A stretch of 64,000 nt of DNA, taken from assembly GCF_012295615.1 (NCBI RefSeq), contig NZ_CP051183.1:2631001-2695000 (forward strand), read 5' to 3'. The position numbers and the translations under genes are program-made. Positions 10,257 to 19,820 of the stretch are shown in pieces. Each line of letters starts with the position of its first letter. Positions within the stretch are counted from its first letter, which is position 1. This stretch comes from Bermanella marisrubri. GTDB taxonomy: Bacteria; Pseudomonadota; Gammaproteobacteria; Pseudomonadales; Oceanobacteraceae. The notes below the pieces were generated by a model, which worked only from the letters and a program-made list of their open reading frames with translations, was not told where the DNA came from and made no database searches.

Positions 10257-12051
10257 GAGGCTGTAGAAAAACCAACTTTGAGACAGTGATTTCCTGCAGC
10301 CTAAATTCTTAATTTAATTAGCCGTTAATTTGCCACATCAATTTTAATTATCAACCTTAAACACCAAAATGTTGTAGATAATCACTATGAGCGCTCTATA
10401 ACACCCTCTTAATGACTTAATTGCCCGTAATTCGTTAACTTTTCAATATTATGAACCATACAATACAGCTGCCATTGGGATTCGACCTTGTCTTTTCCTC
10501 GCAGGCTGAATCGATTTAATCCTTTATTGGTTCCGATATTGGCAAAGACAGGTTCTACTACCGACATTCGGTGGCTGTAAATCTGTTTGCCTTCTTTACT
10601 ATCGACTCGATGTTTCATCCAATCGGTGTAGGTTGGCCCTCGCTTATGGGATAGCGTGAAAGAGACCTGTCGGCCACTGCCTTTTCTGTGATCGGCGGAT
10701 GCTGGGTTTTGCATGCACTTGGTTTTTAGCTCGCAGTTTCGACATTGCATGATTCGGCCATTAAAGAAGGCCTTGGGCGCGCCAGAGTCTGAGATGCGGG
10801 TATTTTGATAGCTAAGGGTTTCACCTGCTGGACAGACACAGACAAGATTCACTGGATCGAAGTTAAATTCACTGGGTGGAATGACGTTTCGAACTGAACC
10901 TTTCTTCTTTTCATTCTGGTGTCGCTTACCGTATTTCTTCTTTTGCTCTGCGAACTTTGGATCTCGGCTTCGAAAATGATTATCTGGCACGTAGGCATTG
11001 ATACCCGATTCATGTAGGTATTTCATATTGGCTTCATTGGCGAAGCCTGTATCGGCCGTGACGATGGTTTTCTTTTTATAGATGTTGTTGCTGATACCGA
11101 TTCGCTTATATCTATCCTGTACTTTTTCTAGTATCGGTCTTAAAGTATGGTGCTCTTGACCTTCACCAAAGGCTTGCGCATCAATAATAATCTGGTGTTT
11201 TTTATCCACAGTCGCAACACCATTGTAGCCCTGTATCGTCCCTTTGCTGGTGGTCATTTTGGCTGACTGATTATCGGTAATATTACTTTTAACTTCCTGT
11301 TTTCTCTTGCCCTGCCCCATGCGTGGGTCAGACGTCTTTAGGAATTCATTAATTTTTTCATGGGCTTTTGAAAGCGTTTCTATCGCCTTTTCAGCTCGCT
11401 TAGTCCGTTCTTCATTAAGTGAATCATACTTGTCTATCGCCTTATGCTCTGTCACATGATGATTAATCAGGCGCTTTATCTTTGATCGCTTTTCTTCCAA
11501 TTCTTTAAACGTACCAGACCATTCTTTCGCGGCATTAGAGGACATCTTACAGCCATCAATGGCAAATAGTTCATTCCCTAAAAGACCCTGCTCATGACAA
11601 ATCAGAAGTATCTGCTCGAAAAGATGTTCGATCTCGGATGTATGACCACTTACAAATGCAGCAATAGTCGTAAAGTGAGGCACTGTATCGCAGGACAATG
11701 CTTTAAATATAATATTGGTTTCGCAGCACCATTGAATTTCACGACTAGAAGTAATGCCTTTTGAATACGCAAACAATATGATCTTTAACAAAATAGCTGG
11801 GTCATAGGCAGGACGGCCACTATCATGATTACTGTACTTAGGATAGAAAATAGAAAGATCGAGTTTTTCATTAATCAAGTAATGAACAGCGTACTCAAAC
11901 GTACCCGGTTGCAATTGATCTTTGAAATTAATTACAACCATTGAGGTTTGATCGTAATTGTAAGGAATGAATTTTGGCATTGTCACACCTCCATATGCGA
12001 AGGTGCATTTTATCAAAATTTATAAAGGAAATGGGGTTTTTCTACAGTCTC
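10257..12051 (-). mobile_element. IS1182-family insertion sequence, copy 1
   Basis: About 1795 bases bounded by inverted repeats GAGGCTGTAGAAAAACC at 10257 and, with one mismatch, its complement ending at 12051. The flanking trinucleotide AAC (10254-10256 and 12052-12054) is a candidate target duplication. The left flank GCTAAC and right flank AACGCC rejoin into an attC R' core, GCTAACGCC. One transposase gene fills the element. A 17-base repeat of this kind and the encoded protein fit IS1182. Confidence 0.85.
10409..11980 (-). CDS. IS1182 family transposase
   Basis: 523 residues from the ATG at 11980, which has GGAGGTG five bases upstream; a longer frame is open but unneeded. The N-terminal DUF772-like domain (GRPAYDPAILLKIILFAYSKG) is followed by ELFAIDGCKMSSNAAKEWSG and VTADTGFANEANMKYL, the two Asp sites of the DDE domain. 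A Cys-rich segment CRNCELKTKC follows, and YSHRMSVVEPVFANIG holds the final Glu. All parts appear intact, so the element may be active. Confidence 0.92.
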   Translation of the reverse strand: MPKFIPYNYDQTSMVVINFKDQLQPGTFEYAVHYLINEKLDLSIFYPKYSNHDSGRPAYDPAILLKIILFAYSKGITSSREIQWCCETNIIFKALSCDTVPHFTTIAAFVSGHTSEIEHLFEQILLICHEQGLLGNELFAIDGCKMSSNAAKEWSGTFKELEEKRSKIKRLINHHVTEHKAIDKYDSLNEERTKRAEKAIETLSKAHEKINEFLKTSDPRMGQGKRKQEVKSNITDNQSAKMTTSKGTIQGYNGVATVDKKHQIIIDAQAFGEGQEHHTLRPILEKVQDRYKRIGISNNIYKKKTIVTADTGFANEANMKYLHESGINAYVPDNHFRSRDPKFAEQKKKYGKRHQNEKKKGSVRNVIPPSEFNFDPVNLVCVCPAGETLSYQNTRISDSGAPKAFFNGRIMQCRNCELKTKCMQNPASADHRKGSGRQVSFTLSHKRGPTYTDWMKHRVDSKEGKQIYSHRMSVVEPVFANIGTNKGLNRFSLRGKDKVESQWQLYCMVHNIEKLTNYGQLSH

Positions 12052-12120
12052 AACGCCTCAATAACCGGCGCAGCTTTGCTGCGTCCGGCACCGAAGGTGC
12101 GAAGTTGATTGATTTGTTAT
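12052..12120 (-). other. attC site of the 12117-13163 cassette, split by copy 1 of the IS
   Basis: On the minus strand CATAACAAATCAATCAAC and GTTATTGAGGCGTT are the two ends, around central hairpins CGCACCTTCGGTGC and GGACGCAGCAAAGCTGCGCC. The R' core is cut after GCGTT; its missing half is the GTTAGC at 10251-10256 on the other side of the insertion sequence. Confidence 0.82.
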
Positions 12121-13163
12121 GAATTTTTATCCTCAAGAGATAGAACCCTTTTTTCTAATTTTTTAATTTCAGAAAAGTTCACTCTTAACTTTTCTATTTC
12201 TTCGCTTTCTTCATCTTGATCAGGAGTAAAGAAGTCTACTTCGCCTCCTTTTTCCACAAAATCAATTAGGTTTCTAATAGACTTTTCTAATACTTTAACT
12301 TTTTCTCCATCACCGTTCTGGTTGATATTGAGATTTATAGATATTTCTTTGGTTATATTTTCTAGGCCTTCTTTTTTCTCTTTTTCAGCCTCTTTTTCTA
12401 GATCATTTTCTAGCTTTTGGTTGCTTAGCTTTAAGGCTTTAATTTCTTCAGCTTTCTTTCTTATGGTTAGAACTCGATCTGCAACTTTTAGTGCAGATAA
12501 GATGATAGTGCTTGTAGTTGTTGCAATAGCAGCAATTACTGCAAGCTCAATGATTATGGAGCCTTTTTGTGCACCAATAACTTTTATGTCTTCTGGCGAG
12601 TGATCGTGAGCCATAGCTATACCACGACCTATTTCCCACCATGTGTTGCCCAACTTTTTGAAGTCTGAAATATTTTCTAAAGACACTTCATTTTGAAAAT
12701 GTACTCTCATAACCACATTTTCATTGTTCTCAGGTTCTTCCTGACTTTCGTAGTCGGGTATTAGTGGTTTTAAATTTGTTTGGATTTGATCTGATCTTTG
12801 GATCGCTATGTTGAATTTTTGTACGATCTCGTTAACTTTGACTGCTGCGGTTGCGATATCTAATGAGTTTTTAAAAAGAATGCCTTCTAATTTATCGACA
12901 CCGGTTTGGCCAAGGTGATCCAATATTCCAAACGATGAAAGCATCCTTTCTTGCTCGTTTGTTAGGGAACTTGTAGATATATCGATGATTTCGTCAATAA
13001 CTGCATTTTTTTGGACTTCAAAAGGTTGCTTTGCCTGATTGTTCCTAGCATTAACATTCTGCTGAATTACTGCTTGTAGCTGTTGGTATTTCTGAGTGAT
13101 CGCAGGTGATTTTATATTTCTATCAATCCAGAACGTGAGTTCTAAAAGCTCTAATATTTGCAC
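12117..13163 (-). CDS. Cassette-encoded protein with membrane helix and coiled coil
   Basis: 348 residues, GTG start with AAGGAAGA five bases before. The N-terminal 150 residues are helical and Gln/Asn-rich. Residues around 205-230 form a single membrane helix (IIIELAVIAAIATTTSTIIL). This is followed by a long charged coiled coil (KKAEEIKALKLSNQKLENDL and EKEAEKEKKEG), and a second one ends the protein (EIKKLEKRVLSLEDKN). I do not recognise the family. The soluble sensor - membrane helix - coiled coil layout is seen in some membrane-acting defence effectors, but that is only an analogy. Confidence 0.7.
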   Translation of the reverse strand: MQILELLELTFWIDRNIKSPAITQKYQQLQAVIQQNVNARNNQAKQPFEVQKNAVIDEIIDISTSSLTNEQERMLSSFGILDHLGQTGVDKLEGILFKNSLDIATAAVKVNEIVQKFNIAIQRSDQIQTNLKPLIPDYESQEEPENNENVVMRVHFQNEVSLENISDFKKLGNTWWEIGRGIAMAHDHSPEDIKVIGAQKGSIIIELAVIAAIATTTSTIILSALKVADRVLTIRKKAEEIKALKLSNQKLENDLEKEAEKEKKEGLENITKEISINLNINQNGDGEKVKVLEKSIRNLIDFVEKGGEVDFFTPDQDEESEEIEKLRVNFSEIKKLEKRVLSLEDKNS

Positions 13164-13186: not shown

Positions 13187-14980
13187 GAGGCTGTAGAAAA
13201 ACCAATTTTGAGACAGTGATTTCCTGCAGCCTATATTCTTTATTTAATTAGCTGTTAATTTGCCACATCAATTTTAATTATCAACCTTAAACACTAAAAT
13301 AATGAAGATAAAACTATGAGGCAGCTATATGTCTATATTAATGACTTAATTGCCCGTAATTCGTTAACTTTTCAATATTATGAACCATACAATACAACTG
13401 CCATTGGGATTCAACTTTTGCCTTCCCTCGTAGACTAAAACGATTCAATCCTTTATTGGTTCCGATATTGGCAAAGACAGGTTCTACTACCGACATTCGG
13501 TGACTGTAAATCTGCTTGCCTTCTTGGCTATCGACTCTATGCTTCATCCAATCTGTGTATGTTGGCCCACGCTTATGAGATAGCGTAAATGAGACTTGTC
13601 GGCCACTGCCTTTTCTGTGATCAGCAGATGCTGGATTTTGCATGCACTTGGTTTTTAACTCACAGTTTCTGCATTGCATGATGCGACCATTAAAGAAGGC
13701 TTTTGGTGCTCCGGATTCTGAAGTTCGAGTATTTTGATAACTTAATGTTTCGCCGGCTGGGCAGACACAAATAAGATTAACAGGGTCAAAATGAAACTCG
13801 CTGGGTGGAATCACATTTCGAACATGGCTTTTTTTCTTTTCATTCTGATGACGCTTACCGTATTTTCTCTTTTGTCGTGCGAACTTAGGATCTCGGCTTC
13901 GAAACTGATTATCCGGCACGTAGGCATTAATACCCGATTCATATAGATATTTCATATTAGCTTCATTGGCGAAGCCCGTGTCGGCAGTCACTATGGTTTT
14001 CTTTTTGTAGATATCTTTGCTAATGCCTATTCGCTTATATCTTTCTCGCACTTTTTCTATAATAGGCCTCAACGTATGGTGTTCCTGGCCCTCTCCAAAG
14101 GCTTGCGCATCAATAATGATTTGATGCTTTTTATCGACCGTTGCCACACCATTGTAGCCTTGAATGGTTCCTTTACTGGTGGTCATCTTGCCTGACTGAT
14201 TGTCGGTGATGTTACTTTTAACTTCCTGTTTTCTCTTGCCTTGCCCCATCCTTGGACTAGACGTCTTTAGGAACTTATCAATCTTATCGTAAGCATCAGA
14301 TAAAGTTTTAATGGCTTGCTGAGCGCACTTGGCTCGTTCCTCACCAAGGGATTCGTTTTTATCGATCTTTTTATGCTCGGTAATATGATGCTTGATCAAG
14401 CGCTTTATCTTTGCTCGCTTTTCCTCTAATTCTTTAAAAGTACCTGACCATTCCTTTGCCGCATTGGATGACATCTTACATCCATCAATGGCAAACAGTT
14501 CGTTACCTAGCAATCCTTGCTCGTGACAGATTAAAAGGATCTGTTCAAATAGGTTTTCAATTTCAGAGGAATGACCGCTCACGAAGGAGGCAATGGTTGT
14601 GAAGTGGGGTACCGTATCGCAGGACAACGCCTTAAAAATGATATTGGTTTCGCAGCACCATTGAATCTCACGGCTAGAAGTAATGCCCTTGGAGTACGCA
14701 AACAAAATAATCTTCAACAAAATGGCTGGATCATAAGCAGGACGACCGCTACTGCTATTGTTGTAATTCGGATAGAAAATAGAAAGATCTAGCTTTTCAT
14801 TAATCAAATAATGAACTGCGTACTCAAACGTTCCGGACTGCAATTGATCTTTGAAATTAATTACAACCATTGAGGTTTGATCGTAATTGTAAGGAATGAA
14901 TTTTGGCATTGTCACACCTCCCTATGCGAAGGTGCATTTTACCAAAATTTATAAAAGAAATGGGGTTTTTCTACAGCCTC
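13187..14980 (-). mobile_element. IS1182-family insertion sequence, copy 2
   Basis: About 1794 bases with perfect GAGGCTGTAGAAAAACC ends (13187 and complement ending 14980) and AAC on both sides (13184-13186, 14981-14983). The flanks rejoin as CATAACGCTTGC, an attC R' core. It is clearly related to copy 1, but the two differ at many synonymous positions, so they are not a recent duplication. Confidence 0.87.
13338..14909 (-). CDS. IS1182 family transposase (second copy)
   Basis: 523 residues, the same length as the first copy and highly similar; differences include FYPNYNNSSSGRP against FYPKYSNHDSGRP, and KCAQQAIKTL against KRAEKAIETL. The ATG at 14909 has GGAGGTG upstream. All DDE segments seen in copy 1 (IDGCKMSSNAA, TADTGFANEA, EPVFANIG) are kept. 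Confidence 0.92.
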   Translation of the reverse strand: MPKFIPYNYDQTSMVVINFKDQLQSGTFEYAVHYLINEKLDLSIFYPNYNNSSSGRPAYDPAILLKIILFAYSKGITSSREIQWCCETNIIFKALSCDTVPHFTTIASFVSGHSSEIENLFEQILLICHEQGLLGNELFAIDGCKMSSNAAKEWSGTFKELEEKRAKIKRLIKHHITEHKKIDKNESLGEERAKCAQQAIKTLSDAYDKIDKFLKTSSPRMGQGKRKQEVKSNITDNQSGKMTTSKGTIQGYNGVATVDKKHQIIIDAQAFGEGQEHHTLRPIIEKVRERYKRIGISKDIYKKKTIVTADTGFANEANMKYLYESGINAYVPDNQFRSRDPKFARQKRKYGKRHQNEKKKSHVRNVIPPSEFHFDPVNLICVCPAGETLSYQNTRTSESGAPKAFFNGRIMQCRNCELKTKCMQNPASADHRKGSGRQVSFTLSHKRGPTYTDWMKHRVDSQEGKQIYSHRMSVVEPVFANIGTNKGLNRFSLRGKAKVESQWQLYCMVHNIEKLTNYGQLSH

Positions 14981-15053: not shown

Positions 15054-15545
15054 TCAGCCAAACTGGAAATGGACGGCATTCTCTCCTGCTTCAGAAATCT
15101 GCCAATCCTCGAATCTGAGCCCGACACCGTGTTCAACTTCCCACTTAGCCCAGAAGCCCATACCGAAGGTGCCAACCTCGCGCCAAGCAGGGATGAACAT
15201 CGACTGGTATACCAGTAGGGAAGCCAGTTCATCGGGCTTGTCAATGCGGGGAGCGCTTACATCAGGGTTTTCTTTCCATTCTCGAAATGCTTCCCGGGAG
15301 ATTTCTATGGTCGCCTGATACTCGTTGAAGATACGTTCGACTGCTTTCGCATGATAATCCTCAACTCGTTCGAGGTAGCCCCGCATTGTATTCAATTGAT
15401 TGTCGGTTACTGCGCTTTGTTGGCCCACAAAACACACCTCGATTGGATCTTCTTGGCTTAAGAAAGGAACACGTATCTCGCCAACAAGCAGATCGTCTTC
15501 CTGCCGAAGTGAACGTAACCATTCTTCCAGCTTTTCGAGGTGCAC
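15054..15545 (-). CDS. Cassette-encoded hypothetical protein
   Basis: 163 residues, GTG start with AGAGGA six bases upstream. The C-terminal part (GTFGMGFWAKWEVEHGVGLRF, the last residues of a W..EHG.G.R pattern) resembles the DUF6985 group of small proteins that often accompany toxins and immunity proteins; this link is uncertain. The N-terminal half has EIRVPFLSQEDPIEVCFVG, a beta-rich start. There are no membrane segments. Its own attC follows immediately, so it is a single-gene cassette. Confidence 0.7.
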   Translation of the reverse strand: MHLEKLEEWLRSLRQEDDLLVGEIRVPFLSQEDPIEVCFVGQQSAVTDNQLNTMRGYLERVEDYHAKAVERIFNEYQATIEISREAFREWKENPDVSAPRIDKPDELASLLVYQSMFIPAWREVGTFGMGFWAKWEVEHGVGLRFEDWQISEAGENAVHFQFG

Positions 15546-15562: not shown

Positions 15563-15639
15563 CTAACGCCCGGCCTTTGAGCGCGCGCTTGTTGCGCGTC
15601 CCGCCACGTTTTTCAGTGGCCTAAACGGCCGCTTGTTAT
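15563..15639 (-). other. attC recombination site of the DUF2695 cassette
   Basis: A 77-base site. On the minus strand ATAACAAGCGGCCGTTTAGG is the left arm and GGCCGGGCGTTAG the right arm; inner stems GGCCACTG...CGTGGC and GCGCGCGC complete it. Cores are CTAACGC (15563-15569) and TTGTTAT (15633-15639) on the plus strand. Confidence 0.87.
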
Positions 15640-15947
15640 GAGTTTTCATCAAGGTGCCATCCTACGATGTCACCCACATCGTCATAGACGTTATAGATTA
15701 CCTCGCAGTCACAGAAACCACCGTGCTCTCCAAGCCAAGGAATAACCACTTCTGGATCAAGCTTCCGCGACTTAATGAATTCAATGGACTCCTTCAGTGA
15801 GTGATCACACTCTGGAGCAGAATCCCTGTTTAAGTAGGATAAGAGATCTTTTAGATCATCAATACTCATAGGAATTGATGCTCGAATCTCATCTTGCTCA
15901 TTCTGCTTAAATTGAGCTTTAAGTTTCTTCTTCTGCTCTTTGTCCAT
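15636..15947 (-). CDS. DUF2695 domain-containing protein
   Basis: 103 residues from the ATG at 15947. The C-terminal half carries a conserved pattern of DUF2695: CDHSLKESIEFI, then VIPWLGEHGGFCDCEVIYNV, with Cys and His in positions suggesting a small metal or redox site. The N-terminus is a lysine-rich helix (KEQKKKLKAQFKQNEQ). The family's role is unknown, but it is a frequent cassette and accessory gene. It is the most attI-proximal cassette still visible, since the next core is joined to an IS110 element. Confidence 0.8.
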   Translation of the reverse strand: MDKEQKKKLKAQFKQNEQDEIRASIPMSIDDLKDLLSYLNRDSAPECDHSLKESIEFIKSRKLDPEVVIPWLGEHGGFCDCEVIYNVYDDVGDIVGWHLDENS

Positions 15948-15956
15948 GCTCAATTA

Positions 15957-16211: not shown

Positions 16212-17228
16212 TTAGATTGTAGCGCAATACTGTGATTGCTTTGCAAGTATTGCCCATGCAATACGCACTAACTTGTTTGCCAATGCAACAATCACTTTAT
16301 TTTTGTGCATTCGTTTGAGCAATGCCATGATCCATTCATGAAATGGCTTACCCTCTTTTGTGTGCCTAATTACTGCCCTAGCTCCATGAATAAACATACG
16401 TCTTAAATATGCGTCTCCACGCTTGCTTATACCAAGTAATAATGCCTTACCGCCACTCGAATGCTGACTCGGAACAAGACCTAGCCAAGCAGATAGTTGA
16501 CGGCCAGATTTAAATTCCTTTGCATCACCAATACTTGCGACCAATGCCGAAGACGTTAACCGCCCTACACCCGGAATTTCTTGAACCTTCTTGCACTGTT
16601 CACTTTTACGACTTGCAGAATCAATCTGCCTATCTAATTCCTCTAAGTAAGCTTCGATATCAACCAAACGCGTGTGCATAAGCTTGATATGATTCAACAG
16701 CATGCTTGGTATCTTGCTTTCTAATACCCCAAAATCTTCTCGGAACCACTTTCTAAGTCGAAATCTTCCTGCCGGTATTGATATACCAAACTCATGGAGA
16801 CTAGCTCTTATTCGATTTATTAGGGAAGTGCGATCCCGAACAACACCGTCACGTTCCCGATGCAATAAAAGCAGTGCTTGCTGCTCTTCACTCTTAACTG
16901 TCACAAATCGCATCGTGGGGCGACTAACAGCTTCACATATAGCCTCAGCATCAGCACTATCATTCTTGTTTGTCTTAACATAAGGCTTTACGTATTGTGG
17001 CGGCATCAGCCTCACCTTATGACCGAGCTTTTTTATCTCTCGAGCCCAGTAGTGAGCGCTGCCGCAGGCTTCCATCCCTACGAGACAAGGCTCTATGTTT
17101 GCCAAAAACTTTAATACTTGGTTTCTACGCAGCGCTTTATTTAGGAGCTTCTTTCCATACTCATCAAAAGCACATACTTGAAAAACAGACTTAGCTAAAT
17201 CAATACCTATTGCATGAATCTGGTTCAT
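16212..17228 (-). CDS. IS110 family transposase (IS1111 type)
   Basis: 338 residues. The RuvC-like DEDD domain starts GIDLAKSVFQVCAF with the first Asp at residue 10, then GMEACGSAHYWA (Glu) and NKNDSADAEAICEAV (the two Asp). The C-terminal Tnp_20 domain has IPGVGRLTSSALVASIGDA and the WLGLVPSQHSSGGKALLLG segment with the conserved serine. The ATG at 17228 has AGGAGG upstream. The gene looks complete and possibly active. Confidence 0.95.
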   Translation of the reverse strand: MNQIHAIGIDLAKSVFQVCAFDEYGKKLLNKALRRNQVLKFLANIEPCLVGMEACGSAHYWAREIKKLGHKVRLMPPQYVKPYVKTNKNDSADAEAICEAVSRPTMRFVTVKSEEQQALLLLHRERDGVVRDRTSLINRIRASLHEFGISIPAGRFRLRKWFREDFGVLESKIPSMLLNHIKLMHTRLVDIEAYLEELDRQIDSASRKSEQCKKVQEIPGVGRLTSSALVASIGDAKEFKSGRQLSAWLGLVPSQHSSGGKALLLGISKRGDAYLRRMFIHGARAVIRHTKEGKPFHEWIMALLKRMHKNKVIVALANKLVRIAWAILAKQSQYCATI

Positions 17229-17522: not shown

Positions 17523-17562
17523 ATTCTTGGATTGGCCGTTGATTTTCGCCACTTTATAAATA

Positions 17563-17582
17563 TACTGTATATAAATACAGCT
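17563..17582 (+). promoter_or_regulatory. LexA (SOS) box
   Basis: CTGTATATAAATACAG at 17565-17580 is a full match to CTGT-N8-ACAG with the AT-rich spacer preferred by gammaproteobacterial LexA. It lies 24 bases before the start of the VRR-NUC/exonuclease gene and over a TATAAAT-like -10 element, a position that would block transcription until SOS induction. Confidence 0.8.
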
Positions 17583-17603
17583 TCAATGATTTATTGATTT
17601 ATC

Positions 17604-19820
17604 TTGAAAGAACTACCTGAGAAGTACTATCTCACTCATTTCTGTGAGTTTTTGAGCTATCTATCTGATACTTGCCGTCATTTATTGGATGAGGGTGATT
17701 GGGCACATTTAAACGCGTTTAAAGCACTGCCAGAAGAGGCTCAATGTGTATTTGTGCGAATGCTTAATCGCAAAGGTGATGTCATTAAAACTGGCGATTT
17801 TCGCTACGCGGAAGTGTCCGATATCCCATCGGCTCTGGCTGATTTAGAGCACGCGGGGTTTATTCAAGGTGTTACTGAACCTTTCTTCAATGATTGGCTA
17901 TTAGCTTTAAATAAAGAGGAATTAATAGCCCTTGCGCATTATCGGCTTGAACATCATGAACATAGTTCTGCACTTAATGATTTCGATACACAGCCCCTCC
18001 CCAAAAAAAGCCATACAAAAAGTCGTTGGTTAAGCTGGGTACAGCACCATGTATCGCCATGCAGCCTCATGAATGCACCTTTTGCTCTAATGCAGCAATA
18101 TCACGTGATTGCCAAAGCGGATGTCGTTCAATATTGGTTATTTTTATATTTTGGTCACTTGCGTGGTCGCTTAAATCAATTTTCGCTTCGCGACATGGGC
18201 ATTATGCATACTCATCAGGAGCAACACATTAATGGTGCCCGCTTTGATGATCTCGATCAGGCCAAGTCAGCTTTTTTCTTCAGTTTACAAAACCAAAATC
18301 TTAAGCTAACCAGTGACGATGATTTAGCCGACTTTGCTCGGAAAGCTAAGGCGTTTAATGAAGCGGACGGTCAGCAGGCCGAAAGCCATAGAGACAAGTT
18401 ATTTTACCGCCTCGGAAAGCGCTTATTATCGTTGCCACTATCAGACACATTCTCAGCCACAGATAGAGATCACTTAGCGATGAGTGTGCTGGAGCTTAGT
18501 CATGACCCTGCAGCAATCGAAAAAAGCATTCGTTTACTGTATCAAAAGGGGGAGCATGATGAAGTGCAAACACGCTTACAAGATATTATTGATGATCCTA
18601 GTTCAGAACACTTATTGATTTTTGCGCAAGACTTTTTACAGCGTAAGTTTCATAAAAAACGGACAAGTTTACTGACAGATTTGTTGCGGGCTTGTGAGTC
18701 ACCTATTTCTTTAGATGAAGCCTACCGCGGTTATGCTGAAGGTGGCGTGATTGATCATTATCAACGTTCAGGTGTACGCGCTTTTCATAGTGAAAACAAT
18801 ATTTGGCGCGCCCTTTTCACTTTATTCTTTTGGCATGAACTGTATGAGCATGAAGCGTCTGGCTTTCATTCTGAGTTCGACTTTAAACCTAAATTAATCA
18901 AACAGCGGCAGTTTTATGCTGTTTTATCCTCTGCAATCGAATCACGTTTACAATCCATTCGCAGTAAAACGGATCTACTAAAATGCATTCAGAGTAATTG
19001 GGCACGTCATTACGGGCAACGTAACGGCTTGTTCCATTGGCATGCAAGTTTGCTAGAGCCGTTAACCTTGTTGATTCAGTACGGCTCTTTACCGGGATTA
19101 ATAGAACATTTACGCAATATGGCTAAACAGTTTCATGAACTTTGTGATGGCTATCCGGATTTAATGATCATTGACGATAATGGTATTCGCTTTGAAGAAA
19201 TAAAAGCACCGGGAGATCAGCTGAGGCGTAACCAATTAATCAGTTTGCAAAGCTTAAAGCGCAACGGTTTTGATGTGCGAGTGCAAACGACGGATTGGAA
19301 AATTAATCCTGAACAACCTTATGTGATTGTGGATGTGGAAACCACGGGTGGGCGAAAGGAACAACATAGAGTAACCGAAGTGGGTATGGTCAAGGTATTG
19401 AATGGCGAAATTGTTGATGAATGGCAGAGCTTAATCAACCCCATGCGTCATATTCCGCAAAGTATTACGCGCTTAACGGGCATCAGTAATGAAATGGTAT
19501 CCAACGCCCCTGTTTTCGATGATGTGGCTGATGAAATTGCTGAGTTTTGCGCTGGTTCAGTATTTGTCGCTCATAACGTTAATTTTGATTATGGTTTTTT
19601 CAGAAGTGAGTTTGAGCGTTTAGGTCGGCGTTTTCATGCACCTAAACTTTGCACCGTACAGATGTCTCGTAAATATTTACCAGGCCATAGCTCTTATTCA
19701 CTGGGTAAACTCTGCGCCGCCCTAGACATTGATTTAGAGAACCATCACCGCGCTCTTGACGATGCAAAGGCCGCTGCCCATGTATTTCGTTTGATTCAGG
19801 AAAAAAGACAAACCTCCTGA
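17604..19820 (+). CDS. FAN1-type VRR-NUC nuclease fused to a DnaQ-like exonuclease
   Basis: 738 residues. Residues 1-510 match bacterial FAN1 (LPEKYYLTHFCEFLSYL start; MLNRKGDVIKTGDFRY; a TPR-like middle). Residues 515-568 form the VRR-NUC site: DGYPDL, FEEIKAPGDQL and RRNQ give the Asp, Glu-x-Lys and Gln of the PD-(D/E)XK fold. Residues 569-738 are a complete DEDDh exonuclease: VDVETTG (577-582), AHNVNFD (657-662), HRALDDAKA (715-720). FAN1 processes interstrand crosslinks and flaps; the added 3'-5' exonuclease would trim ends. Start is TTG, as the only upstream in-frame ATG (17586) is closed by TGA. A LexA box precedes it, so it is likely SOS-induced. Confidence 0.88.
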   Translation: MKELPEKYYLTHFCEFLSYLSDTCRHLLDEGDWAHLNAFKALPEEAQCVFVRMLNRKGDVIKTGDFRYAEVSDIPSALADLEHAGFIQGVTEPFFNDWLLALNKEELIALAHYRLEHHEHSSALNDFDTQPLPKKSHTKSRWLSWVQHHVSPCSLMNAPFALMQQYHVIAKADVVQYWLFLYFGHLRGRLNQFSLRDMGIMHTHQEQHINGARFDDLDQAKSAFFFSLQNQNLKLTSDDDLADFARKAKAFNEADGQQAESHRDKLFYRLGKRLLSLPLSDTFSATDRDHLAMSVLELSHDPAAIEKSIRLLYQKGEHDEVQTRLQDIIDDPSSEHLLIFAQDFLQRKFHKKRTSLLTDLLRACESPISLDEAYRGYAEGGVIDHYQRSGVRAFHSENNIWRALFTLFFWHELYEHEASGFHSEFDFKPKLIKQRQFYAVLSSAIESRLQSIRSKTDLLKCIQSNWARHYGQRNGLFHWHASLLEPLTLLIQYGSLPGLIEHLRNMAKQFHELCDGYPDLMIIDDNGIRFEEIKAPGDQLRRNQLISLQSLKRNGFDVRVQTTDWKINPEQPYVIVDVETTGGRKEQHRVTEVGMVKVLNGEIVDEWQSLINPMRHIPQSITRLTGISNEMVSNAPVFDDVADEIAEFCAGSVFVAHNVNFDYGFFRSEFERLGRRFHAPKLCTVQMSRKYLPGHSSYSLGKLCAALDIDLENHHRALDDAKAAAHVFRLIQEKRQTS

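Follow-up and report, generated by a model that had tools for sequence, protein, structure and literature searches.

We found that Bermanella marisrubri carries, within the 64,000-nt stretch of DNA analysed here (hereafter the window), a gene in which a FAN1-type nuclease and a DnaQ-like DEDDh 3'-5' exonuclease are joined in one chain, and that a LexA (SOS) box precedes this gene. Each of the domains is well known, and the combination represents an exonuclease-armed FAN1 subfamily. This conserved family is common to marine bacteria and soil rhizobia and is apparently undescribed. We propose, with a probability of about 0.65, that the product is a LexA-repressed, damage-induced bifunctional repair nuclease whose main substrates would be interstrand crosslinks and other bulky adducts. 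The features of the locus are listed in Table 1.

Table 1. Features of the fusion gene and its upstream region, in window positions
Feature	Position	Strand	Evidence
IS110-family transposase, directly upstream of the fusion gene	16212..17228	-	Pfam
Promoter-like TTGATT-N16-TATACT	17539..17566	+	Consensus match only, 9/12
LexA (SOS) box TACTGTATATAAATACAGCT, core CTGTATATAAATACAG at 17565-17580	17563..17582	+	Motif match
FAN1-DEDDh exonuclease fusion gene	17604..19820	+	ORF, Pfam, homologues, catalytic residues
FAN1_HTH N-terminal domain, residues 8-88	17625..17867	+	Pfam
Helical SAP/TPR-like FAN1 middle, about residues 89-369	17868..18710	+	PaFAN1 fold match
VRR-NUC nuclease domain, about residues 375-566	18726..19301	+	Pfam, invariant residues
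Junction G555-D577	19266..19334	+	22-residue spacing in 62/62 proteins
DEDDh 3'-5' exonuclease domain, residues 568-737	19305..19814	+	Pfam, invariant residues, fold match

The gene is a single uninterrupted ORF of 738 amino acids with a TTG start, and the in-frame TGA at 17595-17597 leaves no room for a start farther upstream. Its composition gives no mark of foreignness (GC 42.4% vs 43.4%). Pfam recovered three domains above their curated cut-offs, namely FAN1_HTH (9e-19), VRR_NUC at residues 459-562 (1.9e-9), and RNase_T (PF00929) at residues 574-728 (5.5e-37). The chain has the complete FAN1 architecture, with an HTH domain, a SAP/TPR-like helical body, and a C-terminal VRR-NUC domain, and the PD-(D/E)xK residues D519, E532, K534, and Q544 align to the PDL...EVK motif of human FAN1. 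The original prediction had placed the VRR-NUC motif at residues 515-568; the PD-(D/E)xK core does lie there, but the domain itself starts at about residue 375-459. Meanwhile, the full C-terminal DEDDh exonuclease that it described is borne out by the RNase_T match and by D577, E579, D662, H715, and D720, which follow the D-x-E ... D ... H-x4-D pattern of a DnaQ-like enzyme.

An AlphaFold2 model of the fusion, built from 52 sequences, had a mean pLDDT of 92 and a pTM of 0.85, and the high pTM suggests that the two modelled halves hold a defined mutual arrangement. In the model, residues 5-567 matched the PaFAN1-DNA complexes (Z 29, 3.8 Å over 527 residues, 21% identity). The closest solved structure to residues 568-737 was the Staphylococcus aureus DinG exonuclease (Z 27, 1.4 Å, 34% identity), followed by the PolC and epsilon exonucleases (Z 23-27 overall).

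To find homologues, one genome per species was scanned. The scan gave 60 full-length proteins that share the architecture and one ended by a contig edge (L004-L064), and one further full-length fusion (L084) was found within the window's order. The full-length set thus has 62 members, the window protein included, and the other 61 share 36-50% identity with it. The gammaproteobacterial hosts are Pseudoalteromonas, Alteromonas, Glaciecola, Idiomarina, and allied genera, and the alphaproteobacterial hosts are Bradyrhizobium, Tardiphaga, Asticcacaulis, Hellea, and their allies. In all 62 proteins, the VRR-NUC residues D519, E532, K534, and Q544, together with E379 and E397, are unchanged, and so are the five exonuclease residues. 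Furthermore, the distance across the junction from G555 to D577 is exactly 22 residues in 62/62. The conserved active sites and the fixed junction indicate that the domain join is old, selected, and fixed in length. The 62 co-linear homologues also support the single-chain fusion that had been predicted, and the predicted gene coordinates are right. Some annotated members are named just 'exonuclease domain-containing protein', a label that conceals their FAN1 half.

A frameshift, an assembly or sequencing join, or a dead gene might be suspected here because insertion sequences lie nearby. In addition, an Alteromonas-like genome (L165, G355:C4:3196900-3201300) has a fusion gene split by an IS3-type element (two ORFs), with 105 aa left on the N-terminal side and 610 aa on the other, and its relatives hold intact copies. 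However, 61 other independent, full-length, co-linear homologues with invariant active sites rule out such an artefact, and we give it a negligible chance.

The results of the promoter analysis showed that the perfect CTGT-N8-ACAG box predicted before the start is present; the core CTGTATATAAATACAG ends 23 nt ahead of the TTG codon, is the only perfect match in the window, and lies in a box that overlaps the -10 hexamer of the promoter-like element. The box of the genome's own lexA gene, CTGTATATAAAAACAG, located 12 nt upstream of lexA, differs from it by one base. This is a host-type box that overlaps a promoter-like element. It should be noted that the bare motif is no rarer than chance in this genome (27 sites vs 28 for the reversed control). 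The fusion box is credible because of where it lies, because its extended form is AT-rich, and because relatives conserve it, not for CTGT-N8-ACAG alone. Similar boxes precede lexA and genes that, read from sequence alone, are presumed to be imuA(-imuB), sulA, and an integron integrase. In the last case, the box immediately ahead of the apparent integrase gene, CTGTATATATATACAG (L118, G000:C1:2074665-2074680), is a perfect palindrome. This locus adjoins an IS110 transposase gene whose visible N-terminus is identical to that of the IS110 beside the fusion gene.

Among the relatives, a perfect box occurs within 200 nt upstream at 15 of the 43 other gammaproteobacterial loci (shuffled mean 0.08, maximum 2), and about 34/43 have a box when at most one mismatch is allowed; a recognisable LexA box is missing at nine gammaproteobacterial loci. 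At 17 of the 19 alphaproteobacterial loci, we found GAAC-N7-GAAC or GTTC-N7-GTTC (shuffled mean 0.14, maximum 2), which we take to be the LexA operators of Alphaproteobacteria. Neither class had the box type of the other upstream of its loci. The class-typical box is therefore kept in orthologues, though not at all gammaproteobacterial loci. Of all the evidence, this persistence of the control with two kinds of operator argues most strongly for the importance of LexA regulation. With the box resembling that of the genome's own lexA and the class-correct boxes in two proteobacterial classes, the SOS regulation proposed earlier gains backing; predicted LexA control of the fusion gene is well supported, and in all likelihood the gene is switched on by DNA damage. 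In addition, 6 of the 37 ordinary FAN1 genes have a perfect box, and given these boxes, damage control may be older than the fusion. Many Pseudomonas-like ordinary FAN1 genes (L138, L140, L134, L129, and others) have at their start a near-LexA box whose one change is shared among them (CTGTATGTAAAACCAG type).

The result of phylogenetic analysis showed that the 62 fusions and the 37 ordinary FAN1 proteins are split by one fully supported branch in the FAN1-part tree. In the exonuclease tree, all fusion exonucleases grouped together (93/97), beside those of Bacteroidota DEDDh-GIY-YIG proteins; L056, mislabelled 'dnaq' in this tree, is the fusion ended by a contig edge, and L065 and L087 were checked by Pfam for the DEDDh-GIY-YIG comparison. 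Both trees, whose root is not fixed, fit one fusion event. This bears on whether the domains work independently and are only co-expressed by way of the fusion. The exonuclease module is promiscuous, being partnered in other proteins with GIY-YIG nucleases, DinG helicase, and PolC. However, each half forms one group in its tree, as expected if the fusion arose once, the examined loci included no split form, and the junction spacing is invariant; we regard independence as unlikely.

A survey of the phylum found FAN1_HTH in 67 of 397 genomes, with the fusion status read from frame length and alignment confirmation for the L004-L064 and L084 loci only. Pseudomonas-like frames were mostly about 550-600 residues long. 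Frames of 719-784 residues were found in alphaproteobacterial families (5/6 genomes) and throughout family f145, except for one interrupted copy. Bacterial FAN1 had been described as normally lacking an exonuclease. This holds for the sampled Pseudomonas-like FAN1s but not for the sampled Alphaproteobacteria and Alteromonadaceae, in which most FAN1-HTH frames have fusion length.

The fusion is the sole FAN1 of the B. marisrubri genome. It is absent from 8/8 genomes of the same genus, and several genomes of the same family have ordinary FAN1. In the FAN1 tree, the window protein is placed among Alteromonadales, near Idiomarinaceae (93 SH-aLRT, open fork). Meanwhile, an IS110 and two DDE transposase genes lie upstream of the fusion gene. 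The absence from the genus, the place in the tree, and the flanking transposases indicate that the gene was probably acquired horizontally in this genome. A search of the genus for a clean empty site found none; most of these genomes retain the downstream M19 gene, but with other genes around it. The two DDE transposase genes (10409-12016 and 13338-14915, minus strand) are much alike and bracket a 348-aa ORF (12117-13163), an arrangement that looks like a composite transposon. Small DUF6985 and DUF2695 genes (15054-15545 and 15636-15953, minus strand) lie between the transposase genes and resemble the cargo of a mobile region.

The patchy distribution, the likely horizontal transfer, and the adjoining transposases could also point to a nuclease that defends the genome from phages or plasmids and is SOS-induced by happenstance, and the exonuclease half resembles the PADLOC candidate PDC-S48. 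However, this match is confined to the exonuclease (residues 571-734 against positions 4-169 of 411) and falls short of full length, and the FAN1 half matched no PADLOC model. Furthermore, no defence gene was recognised among the neighbours, and the relatives showed no conserved defence operon. The FAN1 family serves repair, and LexA boxes persist across classes. Thus, we consider a defence role very improbable. The gene was also checked as a possible phage-borne gene, which we rejected; no phage record covers 80% of the query, and the matches listed are exonuclease-only or partial.

For the repair nuclease that we propose, we infer both enzymatic activities, the order of the steps, and the lesion by analogy. 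After DNA damage, the LexA-repressed gene would be induced. Judging from fold and active site, the FAN1 half would bind a branch or flap in the DNA of a damaged fork or gap and, like PaFAN1 and human FAN1, cut the 5'-flap strand beyond the lesion. The fused exonuclease, held at a fixed distance, would then trim the incised or unhooked strand back from its 3' end, which would let gap filling or recombination go on. The main substrates would be those of PaFAN1 and SaDinG, namely interstrand crosslinks and other bulky adducts. Previous studies showed that both PaFAN1 and its human counterpart cleave 5' flaps a few nucleotides beyond the junction and also act as 5'-3' exonucleases (PMC9635880, PMC4103454), and the pairing of a 5' flap cutter with a 3'-5' trimmer would fit in polarity. 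In addition, SaDinG requires both its exonuclease and its helicase against mitomycin C and formaldehyde (PMC12345164), and MrfB is a DEDDh 3'-5' exonuclease for the repair of mitomycin C damage (PMC11194089). The PaFAN1 gene itself responds to UV-C and ciprofloxacin (PMC12796719). With PaFAN1, these precedents make stepwise crosslink repair by the two activities plausible.

Alternatively, the protein could be an SOS-controlled nuclease that serves stalled-fork flaps, gaps, and recombination intermediates generally, with an exonuclease that trims 3' flaps and with crosslinks not the main substrate. In general, 5' flaps are substrates of FAN1 enzymes, which are also 5'-3' exonucleases (PMC9635880), LexA control suits any DNA damage, and PaFAN1 (PA1865) is induced by UV-C and ciprofloxacin (PMC12796719). 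However, SaDinG, the closest solved exonuclease, is needed specifically against crosslinking agents (PMC12345164), and we give this general role only a minor share of the probability. Identity between the FAN1 half of the fusion and characterised or ordinary FAN1 is low, at about 21-25%, so the substrate preference could have shifted. The patchy distribution and the absence from the rest of the genus also indicate that the gene is dispensable. More tentatively, the crosslink repair nuclease could be a rigid two-site machine, in which incision and 3'-5' trimming would be coupled in one binding event through the invariant junction. We find this possible but doubtful; if true, it would be a one-protein, SOS-induced route by which a crosslink is unhooked and the ends are cleaned, used under two LexA operator systems.

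Four known systems are close to the fusion. The P. aeruginosa FAN1 (PA1865; PDB 4R89, 5Y7G) shares the fold of residues 5-567 and the VRR-NUC catalytic residues, and it is damage-inducible, as the fusion would be by predicted LexA control. However, PaFAN1 stops after VRR-NUC and is only about 21% identical, and the fusions, with their C-terminal DEDDh exonuclease, are a group of their own. S. aureus DinG (PDB 8ZEF, 9II8) likewise joins such an exonuclease (34% identity, 1.4 Å) to a crosslink-repair enzyme; there the exonuclease is N-terminal and the partner is a helicase, whereas in the fusion it is C-terminal and the partner is the FAN1 nuclease. The nearest exonuclease sequences (50-61% identity) belong to the Bacteroidota DEDDh-GIY-YIG proteins (Cho/UvrC-like, with an exonuclease as in NCBIfam PRK07883). 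These follow the same principle of an exonuclease plus a structure-specific nuclease, but with a GIY-YIG partner, reversed domain order, and no FAN1. B. subtilis MrfAB also pairs a DEDDh 3'-5' exonuclease with a second enzyme in mitomycin C repair, but as separate proteins and with a helicase.

Our literature search, to which subscription journals were mostly closed, found no paper on a FAN1-exonuclease fusion or on VRR-NUC together with DnaQ, and a prior description is possible. For FAN1/VRR-NUC with LexA/SOS, it returned only a T6SS effector, Pseudomonas UV, and unrelated papers. Bacterial FAN1 serves as a structural model of human FAN1, and its bacterial role and regulation are little studied. 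A conserved hard-wiring of FAN1 to an exonuclease, under predicted damage control in two classes, points directly to the partner activity. The question of what follows FAN1 incision could thus be tested through a single gene in bacteria that grow readily (Pseudoalteromonas, Bradyrhizobium).

No conserved operon or partner gene emerged around the fusion; neighbours are kept only within Alteromonadaceae and, separately, in some Bradyrhizobium. Two Bradyrhizobium plasmids (NZ_CP064702.1 and NZ_CP126014.1) carry the fusion, so it has also spread via large plasmids. One alphaproteobacterial genome (G449) has two FAN1_HTH genes, both of fusion length. In addition, at five Bradyrhizobium loci (L036, L042, L043, L053, and L064), an ORF with a DinB-like start (IIHIDMDAFYASVEQ) lies near the fusion on the opposite strand.
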